Shown here piece after piece: positions 37,327-48,987 of a stretch of DNA of 64,000 nucleotides (its first letter is position 1; each line of letters starts with the position of its first letter). The notes under the pieces are model-generated. The model ran no database searches and was not told where the DNA came from. It was given only the letters and a program-made list of their open reading frames with translations. This DNA is from Eubacteriales bacterium (GTDB lineage: Bacteria; Bacillota; Clostridia; Lachnospirales; Lachnospiraceae). The stretch lies in contig JAUNGC010000008.1 in the NCBI GenBank assembly GCA_030524745.1, forward strand, positions 60,210 to 124,209, in the 5' to 3' direction. Position numbers and translations under genes: made by a program.

Positions 37327-37527
37327 ATGTCGGAATATAGATCTCAGAATATGTCCTGTTCTCAGGAACATTCAGATGATTCCATGCGTTCTTTTGCGTT
37401 GGCAATGGCTTATGTCCCCTGGCAGCAATGGAACCAGACCTATGAATTGAAAAAAGCGTTGAGCGCCGGTACCATCTTCCCGGAACTCGACAAACCATTT
37501 TGCGGAAAGCGGGGGAATTGTAAATGA
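37327..37527 (+). CDS. cotJA: Spore coat associated protein CotJA
   Basis: CotJA is a small protein of the inner spore coat, deposited together with CotJC. The 66-residue product has the family core LAMAYVPWQQWNQTYELKKA (20) and GTIFPELDKPFCGKRG. I chose the ATG at 37327 with AAGGAG six bases upstream. Its stop overlaps the start of cotJB by four bases. The operon order cotJA-cotJB-cotJC is the same as in Bacillus. Confidence 0.94.
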   Translation: MSEYRSQNMSCSQEHSDDSMRSFALAMAYVPWQQWNQTYELKKALSAGTIFPELDKPFCGKRGNCK

Positions 37528-37919
37528 TGCAAAATCAATCCTGTAACTATCATCCCGGCGCATCCTGCAGACAAGGATGGAATATGCCGTCTTATGTACA
37601 ACCCCAGCAGCAGCGTTCCTCTTATAACGCTCCCTCCCGTCCGTCCGGACAGATGAGCCGGGAACAGCTTCTGGAAAAAATCACGCTGGCAAAATTCGCC
37701 TGTGTGGATGCAAACCTTTATCTCGACACCCATCCTGATGATACAGAGGCGCTTCGGTATTTTCAGGAAAATAACCGCATTTATGTCGATGCAATGAACG
37801 AATACGCCAGGCTTTACGGCCCGCTCACCGTTTCCCATGCGCAATATAACAATTCTTATTGGGATTGGGTTAATCAGCCATGGCCCTGGCAAACATCCAA
37901 GACGGCGGACGGGAGGTAA
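37524..37919 (+). CDS. cotJB: Spore coat protein CotJB
   Basis: The 131-residue product has a Gln/Ser/Pro-rich N-terminal extension (about 1-42) not present in Bacillus CotJB, then the CotJB domain (about 43-125): LLEKITLAKFACVDANLYLD (20), HPDDTEALRYF, EYARLYGPLTVS and WVNQPWPWQ. It is coupled to cotJA by an overlapping start and is followed six bases later by cotJC. Confidence 0.93.
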   Translation: MMQNQSCNYHPGASCRQGWNMPSYVQPQQQRSSYNAPSRPSGQMSREQLLEKITLAKFACVDANLYLDTHPDDTEALRYFQENNRIYVDAMNEYARLYGPLTVSHAQYNNSYWDWVNQPWPWQTSKTADGR

Positions 37920-37925
37920 TGATCG

Positions 37926-38558
37926 ATGTTTAATTATGAAAAACGTTTGGAATATCCAATCCATATTAAAGAAACAAATCCCAAACTGGCCAAAGCAATC
38001 ATCACACAATACGGCGGTCCCAACGGCGAATTGGGCGCATCCATGCGCTATCTGTCCCAACGTTATACAATGCCCTACAAGGAATGTATGGCCGTTTTAA
38101 CGGATATCGGAACGGAAGAACTGGGACACTTTGAGATGATCGCTACTATTGTCCATCAACTCACCCGGAATATGACCATGGAAGAATTAAAGGAATCCGG
38201 TTTCGATGCCTACTATGTAGACCATACTCTGGGCCTGTGGCCACAGGCCGCTTCCGGAGAACCATTCTCCGCCAGTATGTTTCAGTCTGTCGGCGATCCT
38301 ATCACAGACCTGATGGAAGATATGGCGGCAGAACAAAAAGCGAGAACAACTTACGACAACATCCTCAGACTGTCCGCAGACTCTCCTGATGTCACGGACG
38401 CCATCCGCTTTCTGCGGGCGCGGGAAGTTGTGCATTTTCAGAGATTTGGCGAAGCGTTGCGAATCGTGCAGGATAAACTGGATTCCAAGAACTTTTATGC
38501 CTTCAATCCGGCGTTTGACACCGGGGTGATGAAGGATGATGGCTGCGGATGTGAATGA
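37926..38558 (+). CDS. cotJC: Spore coat manganese-catalase-like protein CotJC
   Basis: CotJC resembles manganese catalase and is built into the spore coat. The 210-residue protein has the di-manganese four-helix ligands: GGPNGELGASMRYL, GTEELGHFEMIATI and AEQKARTTYDNIL followed by REVVHFQRFGEAL (Glu/His). The C-terminus MKDDGCGCE is also family-like. GGAGG lies upstream of the ATG. A hairpin repeat (38593-38633) follows. Confidence 0.95.
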   Translation: MFNYEKRLEYPIHIKETNPKLAKAIITQYGGPNGELGASMRYLSQRYTMPYKECMAVLTDIGTEELGHFEMIATIVHQLTRNMTMEELKESGFDAYYVDHTLGLWPQAASGEPFSASMFQSVGDPITDLMEDMAAEQKARTTYDNILRLSADSPDVTDAIRFLRAREVVHFQRFGEALRIVQDKLDSKNFYAFNPAFDTGVMKDDGCGCE

Positions 38559-39030: not shown

Positions 39031-42000
39031 TCATGCAGTTTTATGGATTATTCGCCGCCTGCGTCTGCGGCGTTTCACGAGCAGATACAGAACCACAAGC
39101 GCTGCCAGCACAGCACAGACAGCAATGGCGATAAGCGCGATATTGCTGTATTCTTCCAGCACAAAGGTGATCTGAGATTCCATACTTTTCACCAGTATGT
39201 AAGAACCGTCCGTTTCACACTTCGTTTTCTCATAAGAACCATCATCGCAAAGCATCCATACCCGGTATTTCTTCCCGGAATCCGGCAGCTTGTAGTGCAC
39301 CGTATAGGAAATCTCCGAAAGCGTCGGATCAGTCACCTGTACCCAGATACGGGTGCCGGAATGTTCCCGTCCCGCTTCGTCTGTGAAGGTAAAAGCTTCC
39401 GATTCATGTTCAACCGCCGCTTCGCTGCTGAACGCGCCATCGACCAGAAGCTGCATGGCTTCCCCATCTCCGGAAAGTGCGGATTCGTAAGGCGTATATT
39501 CCGCTTCCAGCGTTCTGCCAAAGACCAGATGAGAATAATCAATGTCCGGCCATTTGGCGGAATAACCACTTTTTGCCGGAATCTGAGGCAGTCGGTCAAT
39601 GCCTTCTCCGTATTGAAACGGTATTACCTCCACCACTTCCCCGTCCGCCATAAAAACGAGTTCAAACTGTTTAAAACGTTCCGGGGTTTCAGCATCGGAA
39701 AGCAGTTCGTCATAGGAAACGGGCTCCGCCTTTCCGGAATAGCTGATATTGTCCACCGCAGCCAGCGTGGCATGAACGAAAAGGTTGTTTTCTACAGTCC
39801 CCTCCTCTTCCACGTTTCCGGCAATGCTTCCTACATATGCGGTGTAGGCTTCCACGTCAATCAGAGCGCGGCATCCTGCTATGGTAGCGCCGTAGCCTGC
39901 GATGCCTCCGATATATTTTCCGCCGGACAGGCTGCATTTGGACCAGCAATTCCGGATTACCGCAAAGGACTCACCCGCGATTCCGCCCACATAATCGCCG
40001 TCCGTACTGCAGACATCTCCGTAGCTTTCACAAGCGCTGATTTTTCCCAGATCCATTCGCCCGGCAATCCCGCCTGCACAGTTTTTCTTCGCTGTAATTT
40101 CACCGGTGTTGATACAGCCTGTTACAACCGCTGAGGTCAGCAGGGAAAAATTCAGAGAACGGTTTTGCGTGTTTATAATATCGTCTTCCCTGTCGAAATC
40201 AAATTCCAGGGCCATCGCGCCTACGATTCCTGCTATATTAACATCTCCCTGCACCGTCCCGGCATTATGGGAACCGGAAATGCGGCCATCGTCTGCATTC
40301 TGTGCGCCGGCTTCATCCGATACATCCTGAAAATGGTCCTCTATATCGGAATTTATTTCCTCCTTCGCCTCTTCCTGCTCCCGCTTTAAAAGATCCGCGA
40401 TTACCCGGATCTGGTTATTTATGACGCGCATATCTTCCAGCAATGTATCAGAGGAAGTGTCCATCGCTTCGTTTAAGCTGGTTACGCTGTCTCCTATGTG
40501 GTCTAAAGCAGCGTCCATCGCATCGGACTGGTCCGCAATTCTGCCGCTGAGCGGTGTAAAGGAAATGGATGGTTTCTCTCGCAGTTCTTTTATAATGCCG
40601 CTGAAAGAATCCGCCGCCTGCAAAAAAGAAGAAGCACCGGACTTCATAGATTTTCCGGCCGAAAGGAAGGGTTCTGCAGATATGCTGCCCTCGATTTCAG
40701 ATGCCGCCCGCATCCCGTCCAGAAGCTTTTCCAGCGCCTGCATGGATTTTTTAAAGCTATTGCTTGTTTCCAGGATTTGGGAAAGCAGTTCTTTTGTCTG
40801 TTCCGAAAGCGAGGGGACGCCTTGTTCTTCCTTTGGCGTGTCTGCGTCTTTCTGTCCTTCTTCGGCAGGGTCTGCAATCCCCTGCGCTGCATCCGCGCCC
40901 GTGTCATTGTCGCTATCCACTGTGTATCCGTCCGGCGTTTCGCCGTTCGTTTCTTCCTTTTGACCCATGCTGTCTGCATCGCCTCCCAGGGTTTCCGAAA
41001 GCCGCTTCACCTGTTCTGTCAGCGCCTCCAGGCATTCCCGGCCTTTGCGGATTGGTTCTTCAAATTCTTTCGCTTTTTGGGCTGCTGCAGCTGCATCTTC
41101 CAGTTCACTCAGCATTTCCTGACCTTTTGAGATGGTTTTTTGCAGGCTGTCCAGTGTTTCTTTTTCGGGTGATTTTGTCAGCGCATCGACATCCGCCTCC
41201 AGCTGCCGCTGGAACTGCACAAGTCTTTCGTATGTCTCATCCAAAGCCTGCTGCTCCTTTGTTCGTTCCGAATCCAGCGCTGCGCTTATCGCTCTGGAAG
41301 CAGCATTCAGTTCCTGTGCCGCGCTGCTCAACTGCATCGCCGCCGTGTTCAGGGAATCCGTATCCGGATTTTCCCCATTTTGTGCCATATCTGTTAATGC
41401 TCCTGCCAGTGTATCAAAGGCAGCCGCCAGATTTCCATAAGCATTTTGCTGTTTTTCCAGTGCCCGGTCGAGTTTTTCCATTTCCTCTCTGCCGGAAATG
41501 GCGCTTCGAAGTTCCCCTGTGAGATGCTCCAGCGTTTTAAGACAGTCCGCTGCTGTGCTACAGCCTGACGCCAGCCGCGTAAGTGCCGCAGCTGTTTTTT
41601 CGGAATCGCCTACCGCGTTTTTCAGTTCCTCCAACGCATCGTCCAACTCTGCAAAGGCATCCCGAAGTTCTGCCATGCTTTCTGCAAAATCGCCTGCCGC
41701 ATCGCCCAGATTTTTGAGGACCTCTTCATTTTGCGATACCAGATCCCGGATCTGCGAAAAGGCACTTTCAAACTGTCCGGAGGCATCCTCCAACTCCGCA
41801 ACGCCTTCCCGGACTGTATCCATCACCGGATCCATCCGGTCCAGCGCCCAGGAAATTCTGGCAGTAAAGTCATTGATCGTTTCCAGGCTTTCATCCACCC
41901 AGCCGCTTATGCCGTCCGCAAGATCACCCGCTGTCGTTTTTGCGTTTTTCACGCTGTCAGAAAGCGCAGTCATGTTGTCAGAGAGGGAAGAAGAAGCGCC

Positions 42001-43074
42001 CTTTGCGTCCTCCAGCGCACCGTCCAGCATCGTCTGAAGAGCATCCAGTTCATTCCAAAGTTCATTTAAAGTGCTCTCGTCATAGCGCAGAGTGATATTC
42101 GGCTCAAGCTGTCCGGCAATGCCGCCTACATCCTTGCGCCCCAGCACCGTTCCGGTATTTTCGCAGCCGTCCAGGTAGCCGGACTGTCTGCCGACAATAC
42201 CGCCTACGTTATAATACATATGATCGTATCCAATGCTTCCGCTGTTTTCACAGCTTTGAATAATGCCGGAGGAATAGCCAGCAATGCCGCCGATATCCGC
42301 ACAGGTCATAGAGCCTGCCAGGCTGTCCGTGCCGGTCAGCCCAAGTTCAAGCTCCGACATTTCCGGTGTGATGTTGATCTCCGTTGTATTGACGGCTCCC
42401 GCATTTTTACAGAGAATTACGCTTCCCAGATTTCTTCCTGTGATGCCGCCCACATCGCTCTCGCCGCTTACAGAACCGTCAAAACTGCAGCCAATCAGCT
42501 GCCCCTCCGCCTCGTTCTGCCCGACAATACCGCCCACCTGATTCTTCCCCGCGATAGTTCCCGTAAAGGAGCAGCTTATGATCTGCCCGCCATTTTGCCC
42601 CGCAATACCGCCCGCCATGCTTTTTTCTTCCACCGGGAGCACGCTTCCTTCCACCTTCAGGTTCTTTACAATGCCGCCTTTTTGCACATAGCGGAACAGG
42701 CCGGTCACGTTGCCGCTTCCCGTCAGGGAAAGGCCCGAAATCGTATGATCCTGTCCGTCAAAGCTGCCGCCAAAAGTAGGAATTCCCATAAAGTCACTGC
42801 CTGTCAGATCCAGATCCGCCTCCAGCAGCACCGTTTTGCCAACCGACCAGCTATCCAGCGAGCAATCCTGCGGAAGCTGCAGAAAATCGTCGACGCTTCG
42901 GATGACCACAGTTTCTTCTGTCATCGCTTCTCCTGCCCGCACTGCGTCACGCCAGCTCTGCGTTGTTTTTCCGCTCTGCGCAAGGACCGTTTCCGATGGC
43001 AGCAGGGCGAGAGATACGCACAGCACTGTTGCTGTCATTTTATAGAAAAAGTTATTCTTCTTCCTGATCTTCAT
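39031..43074 (-). CDS. Giant GLUG-repeat surface protein with coiled-coil insert
   Basis: The 1347-residue protein has a signal peptide (about 1-35, ending LLPSETVLAQ), a block of GLUG-type beta-repeats (about 110-330: GGIAGQNGGQIISCSFTGT, GGIVGQNEAEGQLIGCSF, GGIAGYSSGIIQSCENSG), about 600 residues of Leu/Ala/Glu-rich helical sequence (about 345-965), a second set of GLUG repeats (about 975-1130), two beta-type domains, and a C-terminal membrane helix (about 1316-1338) with an Arg-rich tail. It is anchored outside the cell. AAAGGAG inside the end of the RND gene precedes its ATG at 43074, a 23-base overlap. No family with this layout is recognised. Confidence 0.85.
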   Translation of the reverse strand: MKIRKKNNFFYKMTATVLCVSLALLPSETVLAQSGKTTQSWRDAVRAGEAMTEETVVIRSVDDFLQLPQDCSLDSWSVGKTVLLEADLDLTGSDFMGIPTFGGSFDGQDHTISGLSLTGSGNVTGLFRYVQKGGIVKNLKVEGSVLPVEEKSMAGGIAGQNGGQIISCSFTGTIAGKNQVGGIVGQNEAEGQLIGCSFDGSVSGESDVGGITGRNLGSVILCKNAGAVNTTEINITPEMSELELGLTGTDSLAGSMTCADIGGIAGYSSGIIQSCENSGSIGYDHMYYNVGGIVGRQSGYLDGCENTGTVLGRKDVGGIAGQLEPNITLRYDESTLNELWNELDALQTMLDGALEDAKGASSSLSDNMTALSDSVKNAKTTAGDLADGISGWVDESLETINDFTARISWALDRMDPVMDTVREGVAELEDASGQFESAFSQIRDLVSQNEEVLKNLGDAAGDFAESMAELRDAFAELDDALEELKNAVGDSEKTAAALTRLASGCSTAADCLKTLEHLTGELRSAISGREEMEKLDRALEKQQNAYGNLAAAFDTLAGALTDMAQNGENPDTDSLNTAAMQLSSAAQELNAASRAISAALDSERTKEQQALDETYERLVQFQRQLEADVDALTKSPEKETLDSLQKTISKGQEMLSELEDAAAAAQKAKEFEEPIRKGRECLEALTEQVKRLSETLGGDADSMGQKEETNGETPDGYTVDSDNDTGADAAQGIADPAEEGQKDADTPKEEQGVPSLSEQTKELLSQILETSNSFKKSMQALEKLLDGMRAASEIEGSISAEPFLSAGKSMKSGASSFLQAADSFSGIIKELREKPSISFTPLSGRIADQSDAMDAALDHIGDSVTSLNEAMDTSSDTLLEDMRVINNQIRVIADLLKREQEEAKEEINSDIEDHFQDVSDEAGAQNADDGRISGSHNAGTVQGDVNIAGIVGAMALEFDFDREDDIINTQNRSLNFSLLTSAVVTGCINTGEITAKKNCAGGIAGRMDLGKISACESYGDVCSTDGDYVGGIAGESFAVIRNCWSKCSLSGGKYIGGIAGYGATIAGCRALIDVEAYTAYVGSIAGNVEEEGTVENNLFVHATLAAVDNISYSGKAEPVSYDELLSDAETPERFKQFELVFMADGEVVEVIPFQYGEGIDRLPQIPAKSGYSAKWPDIDYSHLVFGRTLEAEYTPYESALSGDGEAMQLLVDGAFSSEAAVEHESEAFTFTDEAGREHSGTRIWVQVTDPTLSEISYTVHYKLPDSGKKYRVWMLCDDGSYEKTKCETDGSYILVKSMESQITFVLEEYSNIALIAIAVCAVLAALVVLYLLVKRRRRRRRIIHKTA

Positions 43075-45511
43075 AATTGTTATCTCCTTTTTGCAGAAAA
43101 TTACTTCCATTGATCGCAACGCCGGATACGTCCCCGCTGATATAGCCGTGAATATCCGCATCCACCACGCCGGACAGCCGCCCGCGTACCCTGCCGTCTA
43201 CATAGAGCGTTCGAATTTCATGATGTATGGAAATATCGGGCTTTTTGAGAGAGAAGCTGGTCTTCTCCACCAGCCAGTCTCCCAGCATCAGAATCTGCGG
43301 CAGAATCAGCATGACCAGCACCATGGAAATGGCGGTTCCGCGGCACAGGCATTCTCCAATACCCACAATGGATGGCTCCGTGGACAACTTCCCGATCAGG
43401 AAAGCTGCAGATACCAGAATCGTACCTGAGGTAACAATCGTTGGAAAGGACATATTCAGGGTTTTTATGACCGCATCCTTTCTGGACATCGTCTTTTTAA
43501 AAGTCGAATACCAGTTCGAAATGACAATGGCATAGTCAATGTTGGCGCCCATCTGAATGGAACTGACGATCAGATAACTCATGAAAAAAACTGGCTTATC
43601 CTGCAGCGCCGGGAACGAGAAGTTGATCCAGATGCTCCCCTCGATCACAAGAATCAGTAGAATGGGAAGTCCCACCGACTGGAAAGTGATAAGCAGCACT
43701 GCAACTACCAAAACAACGGACACAACGCTGATGATGATATTATCCCTCGCAAAAGAGGTTGAAAGGTCATAGGCGCTCGTGGAATTTCCCACCAGCAGGA
43801 TTTCATCGGCATCGTAATACTGTTCTGCTTCCCGGTGAATGGTATTTAAAAAAGCGAAAGTTTCTTCTCCCTCCTCCGCCAGGTTCAGATCAATGACCAT
43901 GCGTGAATAGTTTTCCCCCATCATCTGCGCCTTCGCATCGGAAAGCTGCCAGTACATGTCGTTCAGATCTTCGTTTAAGTCATCATCCAGCGTGACATAC
44001 CCCTCCTCCTTCTGGTCATACAGGAAGAAGAAAATGTCCATCAGCGGAATACTGTAGCTGTCCAGGCCGCCCACAATCTTTCCGTATTCATCATTATGCG
44101 CGGCGTATGCGGCATAAAGCAGTTCCGCCAGTTCGTAATCCACATCCGCCATTTCCGAAAATTGCCGCGGTGTCAGTCCGTCCGTCAGCATATAGCCGTC
44201 TATTGCCTCCACGTTCGCAAGACCCATCGCGTAATTGACCTCGTCGTAGTTCTCCAGACGTTTCAGAAGCGCCTGCTCCTTTTCATAATCCCCCTTCGGC
44301 ACCAGAAGCGCCATCACGTTCTGTTCTCCGAAGGTGTCGTTGATCTTTGCTTTCGCAATCTGGCTCTCATTCTGGCGTGATGTGGTGATTGAGGTCTGGC
44401 TGTATGCATAGGGACAATCCTGTGAAATGAAAAATCCTGCGACCATGACGGCCAGAAAAGCAGGAACTCCTATGTAACGCGTTTTTACCACAAATTTACC
44501 CCAGAGATTGATCTCCGGCAGGAACTTTTTATGCGCTGTTTTTTCAATCGGTTTTGCGAACAGCATGAGCAGCCCCGGCATCAGCGTGAATACGGAAAGC
44601 ATGCTCAACAGGATCGCCTTGATCAGTACGATGCCCAGATCATAGCCGATTCGGAATTGCATAAACATCATGGCAGCCAGACCGGAAATGGTGGTCAGGC
44701 TGCTGGCGGAAATTGCCGGGATTGCACTGCTTAAAGCGATTATGCAGGCCTCCCTCGTGTCATGTTCTTCCTTTTCTTCAATAAAGCGGTGCAGCAGGAT
44801 GATCGCATAGTCGATCGCCAGCGCCAGCTGCAGAATGACGGAGACGGAATTAGAAACGAAGGAAATTTCGCCAAACAGAAAGTTCGTTCCCATGTTTAAT
44901 AGCGCCGCTGCCCCAAAGGTCAAAAGCAGCACCGGAACCTCCGCATAGGAGCCTGATGTTAAAAGCAGCACAAGAACGATGATCACTACCGCAATCACCA
45001 TGATCATTCCCATTTCGGAATCCAGCGTGCTCGCAAGGGATTCCCCCACCTCGCTGTCAATGTAGGTATCGAAAGGCTCCATAATCGCTTTGATTTCCGA
45101 CATCGCTTCCAGGCTGATCTCTTCGTCTGCCTCTCCGGAGAAGGATACGTCAAACAGCGCGTCCGTCTGTTTAAAATGTTCTTCTGTCCGATCGAATTCA
45201 ACGGAAGAAACACCATCCACCTCTTCGATCTCTCCGGCAAGATAATCTGCTGCTTCCCATGTCACATTTGACACCATGATCCGTGCCGTGCCGTAGGTGA
45301 CAAGTTCCTCCTCCATTGCAGTCAGTCCTCTCCGGGTTTCCGTGTCCTCCGGAAGATAATCTGTCAGCTCATTGCAGACAGAAACCCAGTTCCGGGAAAA
45401 TACGGAAAAGATCAGCGCCGCAATATAAATGAAGAAAATCAGATTTCGCTTATCCACAATCAGGGTTGCCAGCTTTTCAAAAAAAGACTTCTTCTCTGAT
45501 TTCTTTTCCAC
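43052..45511 (-). CDS. MMPL/RND family exporter
   Basis: The 819-residue protein has the MMPL layout: helix 1 at about 24-45, an external loop, helices at about 165-320 with LALAIDYAIILLHRFIEEKE (20), a second loop, and helices at about 580-750 with IQMGANIDYAIVISNWYSTF (20); the two GxxxDY sites are proton-relay aspartates. Such transporters move lipids or envelope compounds out. After the last helix comes a bactofilin-like tail (LYVDGRVRGRLSGVVDADIH, 20). It begins at GTG with AGGAGG eight bases upstream. It is coupled to the GLUG gene and faces a TetR regulator. Confidence 0.92.
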   Translation of the reverse strand: MEKKSEKKSFFEKLATLIVDKRNLIFFIYIAALIFSVFSRNWVSVCNELTDYLPEDTETRRGLTAMEEELVTYGTARIMVSNVTWEAADYLAGEIEEVDGVSSVEFDRTEEHFKQTDALFDVSFSGEADEEISLEAMSEIKAIMEPFDTYIDSEVGESLASTLDSEMGMIMVIAVVIIVLVLLLTSGSYAEVPVLLLTFGAAALLNMGTNFLFGEISFVSNSVSVILQLALAIDYAIILLHRFIEEKEEHDTREACIIALSSAIPAISASSLTTISGLAAMMFMQFRIGYDLGIVLIKAILLSMLSVFTLMPGLLMLFAKPIEKTAHKKFLPEINLWGKFVVKTRYIGVPAFLAVMVAGFFISQDCPYAYSQTSITTSRQNESQIAKAKINDTFGEQNVMALLVPKGDYEKEQALLKRLENYDEVNYAMGLANVEAIDGYMLTDGLTPRQFSEMADVDYELAELLYAAYAAHNDEYGKIVGGLDSYSIPLMDIFFFLYDQKEEGYVTLDDDLNEDLNDMYWQLSDAKAQMMGENYSRMVIDLNLAEEGEETFAFLNTIHREAEQYYDADEILLVGNSTSAYDLSTSFARDNIIISVVSVVLVVAVLLITFQSVGLPILLILVIEGSIWINFSFPALQDKPVFFMSYLIVSSIQMGANIDYAIVISNWYSTFKKTMSRKDAVIKTLNMSFPTIVTSGTILVSAAFLIGKLSTEPSIVGIGECLCRGTAISMVLVMLILPQILMLGDWLVEKTSFSLKKPDISIHHEIRTLYVDGRVRGRLSGVVDADIHGYISGDVSGVAINGSNFLQKGDNNYEDQEEE

Positions 45512-45541: not shown

Positions 45542-45561
45542 AAATAAACACTTGTTTATTT
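45542..45561. promoter_or_regulatory. Probable TetR operator upstream of the RND gene
   Basis: AAATAAAC (45542-45549) and GTTTATTT (45554-45561) form a perfect palindrome with a 4-base centre, 30 bases from the RND start. A plus-strand promoter for the TetR gene, TTGTTT (45553-45558) with TATAGT 16 bases later, overlaps it. A repressor here would control both directions. Confidence 0.65.
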
Positions 45562-45736
45562 TTGTACTTCTGATATAGTATAAGCATAAACAAAGGAATT
45601 ATCAATAATCATTAAAAGCAGAAACGTTGTTCTTTTGACACTCAGGCAATGGTGTGTTGATTTTTTAGAAAAATTTTACACATTCCAAAAGAGACCGCAA
45701 AAGACTTCGTTGACTTACGAAAGCGGGGTAATTTTG

Positions 45737-46315
45737 ATGAATACAAAGGGAAATAATCGAAGCGTGATGCGTACGAAAGCGCTGTTTAAGAAGGGACTTT
45801 CTGATCTGATGCTGCAAAAGCCCCCTGGAGAGATTACTGTGCGGGAACTGGCGGATTATGTGAATCTGAACCGCGGTACCTTTTATTTGCATTATAAAGG
45901 AATCTACGACCTTTTAGAGCAGATGGAGGACGAACTGATTACGGATTTTCAGACAATTTTGATGCAGCATCGCGCTGATGATATGCAGGGAATGCCGCTT
46001 TCGATGTTATATGACATCTACCGCCTGCTGGCGCAGAACGCGGACTTCTGCCGCGCCCTTTTGTCAGACAAGGGATGGCTTCCCTTTTTTGAGAAGATAA
46101 AAGTTCTGGTTAAGGAAAAATGCTTTGAGGACTGGAGCCATCTTTTCCCGCACAGAGATTCTGCAAGCTATGAGGCCTATTATTCCTTTATGCTGTCGGG
46201 CACGCTCGGTCTTCTGGAATACTGGCTGCTGAGCGGCATGGAACAGCCGGTGGAGGAAATCGCATCCCAGACCGAGAGGTTTATCCTGCATGGCATGGAT
46301 TCGCTTTCCGGCTGA
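45737..46315 (+). CDS. TetR family regulator of the RND-GLUG module
   Basis: The 192-residue protein has a TetR HTH (about 8-58: MRTKALFKKGLSDLMLQKP, GEITVRELADYVNLNRGTFY (20), LHYKGIYDLLEQM) and a C-terminal ligand/dimer domain of the TetR_C_7-like type with AYYSFMLSGTLGLLEYWLL. The ATG at 45737 starts just before the HTH; GGGGT lies upstream. An in-frame extension further 5' runs through the promoter. It is divergent from the exporter gene, so it likely represses it. Confidence 0.9.
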   Translation: MNTKGNNRSVMRTKALFKKGLSDLMLQKPPGEITVRELADYVNLNRGTFYLHYKGIYDLLEQMEDELITDFQTILMQHRADDMQGMPLSMLYDIYRLLAQNADFCRALLSDKGWLPFFEKIKVLVKEKCFEDWSHLFPHRDSASYEAYYSFMLSGTLGLLEYWLLSGMEQPVEEIASQTERFILHGMDSLSG

Positions 46316-46477: not shown

Positions 46478-47239
46478 TCAATTGAACGTTTTTTCACCGC
46501 AGTAAATACAGAATTTTATAGTTGCAGGTATCCGCTTGCCGCAATATGCGCAATAACACATACGAGGCTGCCCCGAATCCGCGTCAGCGCTTTGCGCGTT
46601 CTGTTCGGCCGTTCCGGATTCCGGTTCCTGTACAATTTCTTCCGGTTCCGGCTCCTGAACCGTCATCTCGTCTTCCGGTTCCGGAATCGTTCTTTCGGGT
46701 TCCGCCGCCTGCTGCGGGGGAACGGATGTCTGAGGATCAATATCTTTATGAACCGTATCCTTTTTTGCTTCCTCCCATCCGTTCACCAGAGCCTCCAATT
46801 GTTTCAGCCATTTTTTTACATCTTCACGATCCTCAAGCTTTTCGGCAATCCAACCAATGATCCCAACCACAATCGTACCGATCAGAATTTTCAGCCAGTG
46901 TCTTTGCAGAAAATTCTTTTTTACATATGCAACCAATCCATAATAAAGCGTTTTCTTATTTTCAATTTCCAAAAAGACAGTGGCATTCTCACCATCCCCA
47001 AAAGAAAGAACGAGCAGATCGTCAATAATACGATAGGACCCTGTCTGGGTACTGTCCTGCGTGTAAAGTTTCACCTTGCTTTTCCCGGAAAATTTGAGAT
47101 ATTCCGTGCTGTCAAGTTCATTTACATATGTACCGGAAAGCTTTGTAACGCCGCATCCTCCCAGTAACAGCATAAATACTATTACAAATAAAAATGCTAC
47201 AATCTTTGAACTCTTTTTTTGATATTTTTCTTTTGTCAT
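46478..47239 (-). CDS. Zinc-ribbon lipoprotein-like membrane protein
   Basis: The 253-residue protein has a lipoprotein-type signal (IVAFLFVIVFMLLLGGC), a lipocalin/DUF-like small beta domain (SGTYVNELDSTEYLKFSGKS, 20; TQTGSYRIIDDLLVLSFGDG, 20), a second membrane segment (about 118-137, ILIGTIVVGIIGWIAEKLE), a Pro/Glu-rich linker, and a C-terminal zinc ribbon (CAYCGKRIPATIKFCIYCG). The zinc ribbon would be cytoplasmic if the second helix crosses inward. I do not recognise a named family. It is near the kinase gene, but a terminator (47423-47457) lies between. GGGGAAAG precedes the ATG. Confidence 0.75.
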   Translation of the reverse strand: MTKEKYQKKSSKIVAFLFVIVFMLLLGGCGVTKLSGTYVNELDSTEYLKFSGKSKVKLYTQDSTQTGSYRIIDDLLVLSFGDGENATVFLEIENKKTLYYGLVAYVKKNFLQRHWLKILIGTIVVGIIGWIAEKLEDREDVKKWLKQLEALVNGWEEAKKDTVHKDIDPQTSVPPQQAAEPERTIPEPEDEMTVQEPEPEEIVQEPESGTAEQNAQSADADSGQPRMCYCAYCGKRIPATIKFCIYCGEKTFN

Positions 47240-47422
47240 CGCTATCTTTCCCCAATCGTCAATTATTTTCAAACTGCTTTTTCAAATCGTCTGCAAATTC
47301 CGGCTTTTTATCAGAACCGTATTTTATAATTATATATCCTATTTTACCATTTGAGGTCTGCTGTCAGCAGACTTTCAGACGCCGCAATGAAATCAATTCA
47401 GAGAAATTCATCGTCCGTAACA

Positions 47423-47484: not shown

Positions 47485-48987
47485 TTAACGATAATACCAG
47501 GGACTGTAATATTCCTCCGGGATAGGATCCGGCATAAGAAACGACTTATAGTCATTCGGCCTGGAAGTATAAACCTCAACCGTAAAACGGTAGGCGCCGT
47601 CTAAATCGGTCAAGAATTCCCGCCTGATACGGATTCCGTTATATCCCCTTGAGACAACCTTCCATTTCTCCCAAATATTATTCATTACATAATTTCCGTC
47701 TTTATCATATACGCATACATTAAAACTGTCAGTGTCTTCATAGTCATCCAGATTACTCCAGGTAGCGTAATATTCCCGTCCCTCATCGGTTTCAAACATC
47801 AGCCATTCAAGTCCCGTGGGTGCGGGCAACTGCGGAGCGGCTTCTCCGGTATATACAAATGCATCTGATATGACATACGGACTGTCGGCATAATGGATTT
47901 TATCTCCCTGAGCTGATACGGCGAAATAGTAAACTCCGTTTGTCTGCAATTCACCTGAAAGATTTACGGAATAGGTAGAAGTATTCTCGTCTATACTGCC
48001 GTTCCCTCTCATGTCGCCTTCCAGATCCCATGTATCTTTCTCCGGATCCGGCGGCGTCTCAGAATCTCTGCGGTACAATCTCCAATAATAGCCTACTTCG
48101 CCGTCTCCGTTACCCGATTCCGGAACATTACCCCATAACGCAATTCCTGTCTCCGCATTCCAATGCGGATTCTGGGGCGCCGGCAACACAATCAGATCGC
48201 TGCCTTCGGAAAGAGATTCTTCCTTTTGTGCGCTCTGCATATTTTCATCCGTTACAGACCGATCCCCTGTCGTGAAACCCAAATACAAAAATGCAGCCAA
48301 AAGAAGCGCTGCAAAAGCGTACCATATATATCGTTTTTTCCGTGAAAATTCATTTTTCAACTGCCGGACAGACTGATACCGCTTGTCCGGATTTAAGTTC
48401 GTACACTTTTGTATAATATTTTTGTAGCGCAGCTTATTCGCCCTGTCTCCAAGAAGCTGCTTTAAAGTGATGCCCAGTGCATAAATATCCGTTCTCGCAT
48501 CTGTCTGCGCAAAGCCATATTGTTCCGGCGGCGCATAGCCCCGCGTTCCCAATAATCTCGTGTCCTGTTCCAGATCTTCTTTGGGCATACGCGCCGCATC
48601 AAAGTCAATCAGACGGATATGTCCGTCCTTTGCAAAAATAATATTGGAAGGCTTGATATCGCGGTGGATAATATCCTTTCCATGTAAATATTCCAGAACG
48701 GAACACAATTCTTTGAATGCCGAAATCAATTGTTCCTCGGACAATTCTGCAACGCCCAAAGACTGTCCTTCCACATATTCCTCAATAATTGTCGTGGTAT
48801 CCCCATCCATGGAAACTTCATATAACTCAGCCAGATACGGATGCCTGCAGTTTTGTAATGTTATGTAAATATAGTGCCGGCCTTTCAGAATTTTCCGTAT
48901 AAAAACCTTCTCTCCGTTTTTTTCACGTACCAAATGCACCGTACTTTTTTCGCTCTGCTTCAGTAATCTGATTTCTTCATATTCCAT
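47485..48987 (-). CDS. Hanks-type Ser/Thr kinase with external beta domains
   Basis: The 500-residue protein has an N-terminal eukaryotic-like kinase domain (about 5-205) with the catalytic loop IIHRDIKPSNIIF (about Asp109), the metal site LIDFDAAR (DFD in place of DFG) and APE-like APPEQYG. A membrane helix follows (about 218-240), then external beta-rich sequence (about 265-500) with two fibronectin/Ig-like units (VLPAPQNPHWNAETGIALWG, 20; LPAPTGLEWLMFETDEGREY, 20). The kinase probably reads an outside signal. It is divergent from an HTH gene. Confidence 0.88.
   Translation of the reverse strand: MEYEEIRLLKQSEKSTVHLVREKNGEKVFIRKILKGRHYIYITLQNCRHPYLAELYEVSMDGDTTTIIEEYVEGQSLGVAELSEEQLISAFKELCSVLEYLHGKDIIHRDIKPSNIIFAKDGHIRLIDFDAARMPKEDLEQDTRLLGTRGYAPPEQYGFAQTDARTDIYALGITLKQLLGDRANKLRYKNIIQKCTNLNPDKRYQSVRQLKNEFSRKKRYIWYAFAALLLAAFLYLGFTTGDRSVTDENMQSAQKEESLSEGSDLIVLPAPQNPHWNAETGIALWGNVPESGNGDGEVGYYWRLYRRDSETPPDPEKDTWDLEGDMRGNGSIDENTSTYSVNLSGELQTNGVYYFAVSAQGDKIHYADSPYVISDAFVYTGEAAPQLPAPTGLEWLMFETDEGREYYATWSNLDDYEDTDSFNVCVYDKDGNYVMNNIWEKWKVVSRGYNGIRIRREFLTDLDGAYRFTVEVYTSRPNDYKSFLMPDPIPEEYYSPWYYR

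Follow-up and report, generated by a model that had tools for sequence, protein, structure and literature searches.

A conserved pair of genes for an MMPL transporter and a GLUG/coiled-coil protein in Clostridia, a possible two-component exporter

The window analysed here is a stretch of 64,000 nucleotides from Eubacteriales bacterium (assembly GCA_030524745.1, contig JAUNGC010000008.1, positions 60,210-124,209 of the forward strand). It holds two overlapping genes, one for a transporter of the MMPL family, a relative of mycobacterial lipid exporters, and one for a large GLUG/coiled-coil protein, in the following called the partner, together with a divergently oriented gene for a TetR-family regulator. 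The main features are (lengths in amino acids, aa):

43052-45511, minus strand: RND transporter of the MMPL family, 819 aa, starting with a GTG preceded by AGGAGG; PF03176 with E 9.1e-44
39031-43074, minus strand: GLUG/coiled-coil partner protein, 1347 aa; Glug PF07581 with E 2e-10
43084-43089, minus strand: ribosome site AAGGAG for the partner, within the coding sequence of the MMPL, as read from the letters
45737-46315, plus strand: divergent TetR-family regulator, 192 aa from its ATG; TetR_C_8 with E 1.5e-15, and TetR_N
45542-45561, without strand: palindrome AAATAAACACTTGTTTATTT, 20 bp with 9-base arms, between the divergent genes, candidate operator

An earlier, sequence-only reading of this DNA had claimed a gene overlap of 23 bases, a ribosome site within the upstream coding sequence and a facing TetR gene, and all of these were found as described. 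The overlap spans positions 43052-43074. The list of open reading frames (ORFs) gives 43161 as start of the partner, while the ATG at 43074 sits behind AAGGAG and results in the 1347-aa protein. For the regulator, the ATG at 45737 appears likelier on reading than the TTG at 45635.

Pairing and fusion of the two genes in other genomes

From the MMPL side, the named genomes were scanned with the two MMPLs of the window's own genome, and the best 80 of 307 relatives were kept. These belong mostly to Oscillospiraceae, Lachnospiraceae and other Clostridia, and many derive from gut samples according to their record titles. The partner gene or pieces of it lie directly downstream and on the same strand in 77 of the 80, and in the other three (loci L039, L041 and L057) the contig breaks off inside the MMPL gene or 80 bases behind it. 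Together with the two from the own genome, there are 79 partner frames, of which 68 were aligned after exclusion of nine that run off their contig and two that are split (L016, L056).

For the survey starting from the partner, its C-terminal region was turned into a profile (A5, 50 sequences) and compared to 291 genomes of the class. At E 0.001 it has some match in 118 genomes, among the matches listed mostly short GLUG stretches. We speak of a partner-type protein only at 115 bits or more in one piece, which applies to 31 genomes besides the own one, the weakest being G204, where the match lies at a contig end. In all 31, an MMPL gene is located upstream of the partner or fused to it, although the partner frame is split in L112 and L123; three of these loci coincide with loci of the MMPL-side survey. 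When the window MMPL was scored against the same 291 genomes, with at most three candidates per genome, its subfamily was sharply set off, since 34 loci in 33 genomes reach at least 706 bits, followed by a gap down to 240. Every one of these 33 genomes has a partner, namely the 31 partner-type genomes, the own genome and G177, in which the contig ends within a partner gene that starts next to the MMPL. In a sample of the phylum (398 genomes, overlapping the class sample), six genomes possess a strong partner. Four of them lie outside the class, and the MMPL is adjacent in three of these four; in the remaining one, G612, the contig begins within the partner gene itself. Judged from these sequences, the MMPL and its GLUG partner are a conserved module, never found apart in the genomes examined. 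The coupling of exporter and surface protein claimed by the sequence-only reading is thus conserved from both search directions.

In three of the 31 partner-side loci (L117, L119 and L120, all from one genus), MMPL and partner even form one frame of 1912-2003 aa. No internal start with a Shine-Dalgarno-like motif was found at the junction when residues 740-900 were scanned. A GTG behind GGAGG about 50 residues past the junction in L117 and L119 lies inside the beta-helix and was judged to be a chance occurrence. The signal segment of the partner begins a few residues after the MMPL part of the fusions and fits a thirteenth membrane pass. Besides, the tree distances of MMPLs and partners correlate with r 0.775 over 66 pairs, compared to 0.115 at most in 1000 permutations, and for 50 of the 66 pairs, to which the window pair does not belong, the nearest MMPL neighbour is found within the three nearest partner neighbours.

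These data also bear on the idea that the MMPL is an ordinary inducible pump, comparable to FarE, that expels fatty acids, bile acids or drugs, and that the surface protein is co-expressed but works elsewhere, for instance in adhesion. The accessory distribution of the subfamily (33 of 291 class genomes) would be in line with this, as would the divergent TetR gene with its candidate operator and the precedent of FarE and FarR. However, no genome with this MMPL subfamily was without the partner (33 of 33), MMPLs outside the subfamily score no higher than 240 bits, and fusions exist. We therefore regard an ordinary pump with an unrelated neighbour as rather improbable.

Domains of the transporter and its partner

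The MMPL protein matches PF03176 in two stretches with 150.2 bits in the Pfam search (cut-off 20.5). Each membrane half carries one Asp-Tyr pair (D234-Y235 and D659-Y660), conserved in 98% or more of the 77 aligned MMPLs, and we take these pairs to be a proton relay as in MmpL3. No long heptad insert is present in the 819-aa protein on reading its sequence. The 77 aligned MMPLs of the subfamily close with approximately 50 conserved residues containing V-x-G-x-V-x-G repeats. In the window, this presumably cytoplasmic tail with its short V-x-G-x-V repeats is encoded at 43094-43249 (minus strand) and is bactofilin-like in look only. Four glycines are invariant across 27 tails. Among the Pfam families, Bactofilin is matched most often, but weakly and in no more than 3 of the 27 (best E 0.015), and the tail encoded in the window has no match. 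The three fused forms have no such tail. Where present, it could serve to cluster the transporter.

The conservation of the Asp-Tyr pairs in both halves, the dedicated partner and the tail of most of these MMPLs, which could cluster a complex, would also fit if the MMPL were an energy module, whose proton flux drives a conformational cycle of the partner without export of any small molecule. ExbBD and SecDF are parallels, as they energise other proteins. However, the MMPLs whose roles have been described are exporters of lipids or drugs (PMC12671165, PMC8427324, PMC12501195), and divergent TetR control is given as typical of efflux (PMC12671165). An energy module is therefore quite improbable in our opinion.

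The partner matches Glug PF07581 with 40.8 bits (cut-off 20.5) and contains nine GGxxG-type motifs, interrupted by a single gap of 684 residues. It can be divided as follows:

42958-43074, minus strand: signal-peptide-like N terminus, residues 1-39, with basic start, hydrophobic stretch and VLA-Q site (hydropathy scan)
42100-42903, minus strand: N-terminal half of the GLUG beta-helix, residues 58-325 (conserved block, structure model)
40318-42099, minus strand: coiled-coil insertion, residues 326-919 (helical arms with heptad period, helices in the model)
39745-40299, minus strand: C-terminal half of the GLUG beta-helix, residues 926-1110 (conserved block, structure model)
39145-39744, minus strand: membrane-proximal beta domains, residues 1111-1310 (strands in the model, aligned in relatives)
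39034-39138, minus strand: C-terminal transmembrane segment and polybasic tail (hydropathy scan, sequence)

About 600 residues of helical, heptad-like sequence between two GLUG blocks and a C-terminal anchor had been proposed before, and we can support both. The insert between the solenoid halves comprises 594 aa and has a strong hydrophobic period of 3.5 residues (power 1.09 in the N-terminal arm compared to a maximum of 0.51 in 300 shuffles, and 0.90 compared to 0.49 in the C-terminal arm). In the GLUG solenoid, which served as control, this period is ordinary and was reached by 161 of 300 shuffles. The anchor consists of the transmembrane segment with its polybasic tail, in which no LPXTG-like motif is present on reading. 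An acidic stretch near residues 700-750 is probably disordered. Among the 68 aligned partners (alignment A4), the insert ranges from 219 to 951 residues, and its lengths do not vary smoothly but cluster at about 220, 333, 416, 570 and 680 residues.

The proposed geometry with GLUG repeats at the two ends of a rod has to be corrected. According to the structure model, both GLUG halves would form one beta-helix, into which the 594-residue coiled coil is inserted, and a second look with VIA-align showed that single known beta-helices align across ranges covering both halves. The N-terminal half of the beta-helix has a predicted local distance difference test score (pLDDT) of mostly 90-98, with a weak loop near model residues 195-220. 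The coil is modelled as helices with a pLDDT of about 50-83, falling below 50 at model residues 666-717, and the membrane-proximal region as beta strands up to residue 1239, the last one modelled.

Foldseek alone gave no match for the partner model at E ≤ 0.001. With VIA-align, IgA1 proteases gave the best structural matches, and the adhesin PfbA appears further down among the matches listed. No protease family occurs among the Pfam rows of the partner, the HlyD-type (HlyD/AcrA adaptor) family is absent among its Pfam rows at E up to 0.01, and the TIGR03057 repeat is not found in its 12 NCBIfam rows at E up to 0.01. The coil gave several weak matches (Rad50, SMC-related, Dot/Icm, SpiroCoCo and WXG100 models), which were ascribed to its composition. 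The same applies to a match to the MMPL model TIGR00833 (E 0.0062), which is weaker than several of the non-MMPL coil matches. A match to an ORF on contig C5 of the own genome (E 1.5e-4) was put down to chance coil likeness; this ORF of 1581 aa, in which no Pfam family was named, and its neighbour look phage-tail-like on reading.

Since beta-helices are common in surface proteins, and given the likeness to IgA1 proteases and PfbA as well as the membrane anchor of its own, one could assume that the partner is the cargo, i.e. a giant adhesin or wall-crossing fibre, which is modified or anchored by a lipid that the MMPL supplies. However, with a transmembrane anchor already in place the lipid would not be needed, and the single-frame fusions together with the strict pairing suit a complex better than a modifier with its cargo. 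We consider this unlikely. GLUG beta-helix proteins such as the IgA1 proteases also differ from the partner in that they have neither the coiled-coil insertion nor the MMPL gene.

Four of the 66 complete partners among the 77 (those of L094, L081, L062 and L073) carry a C-terminal extension of two tandem domains, which the window partner does not possess. At least one of these domains is modelled with the lipid-carrier fold of LolA, LppX and LprG, and the best matches of its model are LppX, LprF and LprG. A sequence search of the Protein Data Bank with the extension gave one irrelevant row (E 2.1). PF07161 had no match in three genomes searched, in which the controls also gave none, and is not among the Pfam rows of three extensions at E ≤ 10, a range where the HMMER filters drop weak matches. 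DUF6612 was matched once, in one genome, within a 300-aa frame.

In G228, approximately 40 residues of the extension are left as a remnant immediately behind the partner (L108:2052-2813). The ORF at this place was considered as a separate lipid-carrier gene and rejected, because its similarity to the end of the extension is confined to its start, the remainder being another gene.

Regulator, flanking genes and further MMPLs

A TetR-like gene in divergent orientation lies at a distance of up to 700 bp in 54 of 113 MMPL loci. In the window, dinucleotide shuffling of the 225-bp gap between the divergent genes reached arms as long as those of its palindrome in 24 of 1000 cases, and the palindrome is therefore rated as no more than a candidate operator. 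Other loci have different palindromes or none. Long perfect palindromes around TGTCAGA..TCTGACA, with arms of 13-24 bases, were noticed upstream of the MMPL gene in L047, L023, L046, L033, L019 and L016; they may act as terminators or operators or represent a mobile repeat.

In 34 of the 113 MMPL loci, a further small gene (about 100 aa) lies between the TetR and MMPL genes, directly preceding the MMPL gene on the same strand. Of these, 31 follow from the adjacency rule, L017, L024 and L047 were added since the MMPL ORF starts too early there, and two of the 34 are duplicates between the surveys. Examples, all on the MMPL strand, are:

L094:9697-10023, third small gene
L020:9654-9998, third small gene
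L038:9667-10002, third small gene

Their products show a pattern like YQVTLHSQMGPREG..LTL. Eight examples had no Pfam match above the cut-off, the best being DUF4873 with 20.6 bits (cut-off 25). An initial interpretation of the ORF cluster upstream of the MMPL gene as antisense shadow was given up, because part of it is this real small gene on the MMPL strand. The window does not contain it, since the gap between the TetR and MMPL genes is too short, and it was not found elsewhere in the own genome in a search that had no positive control. The gene may encode a cytoplasmic third component. The simplest form of the module consists of the two genes and the TetR gene.

Flanking gene clusters at scattered distances contain two-component genes (13 sources), integrases (8) and ABC ATPases (8), and a HAD hydrolase gene follows the partner in three loci. 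Further away in the window, genes for CotJB and a Mn-catalase, of spore-coat type by name, lie side by side at 37524-38558. A protein with a protein-kinase domain, a likely transmembrane segment and a large C-terminal part is encoded at 47485-48987, adjoining a zinc-ribbon protein at 46478-47272.

The own genome (63 contigs, 93.25% complete, 4.98% contamination) encodes another complete pair, located at the beginning of contig C63, with 63% (MMPL) and 45% (partner) identity to the window pair and a gene overlap of 4 bases. In view of the contamination, C63 may belong to another organism. A third MMPL is found on contig C14 (L013:2818-7728) as a single frame of 1636 aa, its MMPL part being 26-30% identical. 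Here, the MMPL runs into a lipoprotein-like signal segment followed by an xxxLxxG heptad coil (TIGR03057, E 7.4e-41), which we take to be YdgH/YhgE-like. Like the window pair, it thus combines an MMPL with a secreted-looking coiled coil. However, it has no Glug among its Pfam rows, whereas the window partner has no TIGR03057 match. The C14 protein is a second design for giving an MMPL a secreted coil in the same genome.

Possible function and relation to known systems

On balance and with some reserve, we favour the view that the pair is a TetR-controlled, proton-driven two-component exporter of lipids or other amphiphiles with a dedicated extracellular accessory subunit, for which we infer the substrate, the contact between both proteins and the role as conduit. 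The MMPL would take a lipid or another amphiphile from the membrane, with the proton gradient acting through the Asp-Tyr pairs. The partner would be exported by means of its signal peptide and kept at the membrane by its C-terminal transmembrane segment, so that its beta-helix might be positioned over the transporter, outside the membrane. The coiled-coil insertion could then reach into or through the cell wall and guide or receive the exported molecule. Analogous jobs have been proposed for the coiled-coil insert of MmpL5 and for mycobacterial lipid-binding lipoproteins such as LppX and LprG, with the coil being encoded separately in the present case. The control by a TetR regulator fits inducible export.

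An adaptor or a receiver of exported lipid had already been suggested by the sequence-only reading. This suggestion gains some support from the extension of the four relatives, modelled to be similar to LppX, LprG and LolA, and from the likeness to the coil of MmpL5, so that such a function appears conceivable by analogy and can be regarded as inferred.

Several observations weigh against an exporter of this kind. The fusions retain, on reading, a signal-peptidase-like AxA site; since this end of the signal segment is kept, the fused frames may be cleaved after synthesis. The correlation of the tree distances is largely explained by shared operon inheritance, and the nearest neighbours of the window pair disagree (L050 for the MMPL, L012 for the partner). 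With a third gene in about three in ten loci, the module does not always consist of two genes, and no recurring lipid-synthesis gene was detected beside the pair among the flanking clusters looked at. The coil part of the partner model has only moderate confidence. The lipid-carrier-like extension is rare, its model was derived from an alignment of four sequences and has a mean pLDDT of 60, Foldseek puts BFA1, a DUF3598 protein and RseB ahead of LolA and LppX, and no relation to LppX or LprG by sequence was detected in the searches of the extension.

Three known systems are of special interest for comparison. In mycobacterial MmpL5, a long antiparallel coiled coil is formed by a 196-residue insert in periplasmic domain 2 and is needed for efflux (PMC12501195). 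MmpS5-MmpL5 and the window pair would share an MMPL/RND core and a long coil on the outer side, as far as the model of the partner can tell. However, the coil of MmpL5 is part of the transporter, whereas here it belongs to a separate beta-helix protein and could not be accommodated in an MMPL of 819 aa. FarE from S. aureus is an MMPL pump with the divergent TetR regulator FarR; they act on unsaturated fatty acids, and phospholipid efflux has been proposed as well (PMC12671165). By description, this pump of a Gram-positive bacterium resembles the window pair in its divergent TetR regulator, but a GLUG partner of FarE is not mentioned in the part of the source at hand (PMC12671165). LppX is needed for the translocation of PDIM, and LprG contacts MmpL11 (PMC8427324). 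This family, associated with MmpL7 and MmpL11, resembles the modelled extension domain of the four relatives; there, however, the domains are fused to the stalk protein and occur in tandem.

No description of GLUG and MMPL together was found in the literature, with most subscription journals outside coverage. The literature found on the GLUG motif concerns archaeal genomes, none of the listed titles on GLUG and efflux deals with such a module, and no adaptor for a Gram-positive RND pump is described in the literature searched. This points to an RND/MMPL exporter of a known kind, combined with a dedicated GLUG/coiled-coil accessory subunit that we found described nowhere in this literature.

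A more speculative idea, which we regard as doubtful, is that the coil insertions of several partners come together, for instance as a trimer on top of the MMPL, and form an alpha-helical tube or track by which hydrophobic molecules cross the thick Gram-positive-type wall. If each insert is a simple hairpin, such a structure might be some 16-70 nm long, and since the insert lengths cluster, the arms would be tuned to the wall. If true, this wall-crossing conduit would be a part of an RND pump supplied in trans and would have evolved independently, as an alternative to the tripartite pump.

The patchy distribution of the MMPL subfamily is hardly what one would expect of a core envelope pathway. 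It speaks for an adaptive role, such as the defence against host or dietary amphiphiles or the decoration of the surface. To our knowledge, the export of hydrophobic molecules across a thick wall in the absence of an outer membrane has been little studied. The strict pairing and the natural fusions make this question directly testable in culturable gut commensals, and they provide an independent case to set beside the coil of MmpL5, which is of medical importance as a drug-efflux pump.
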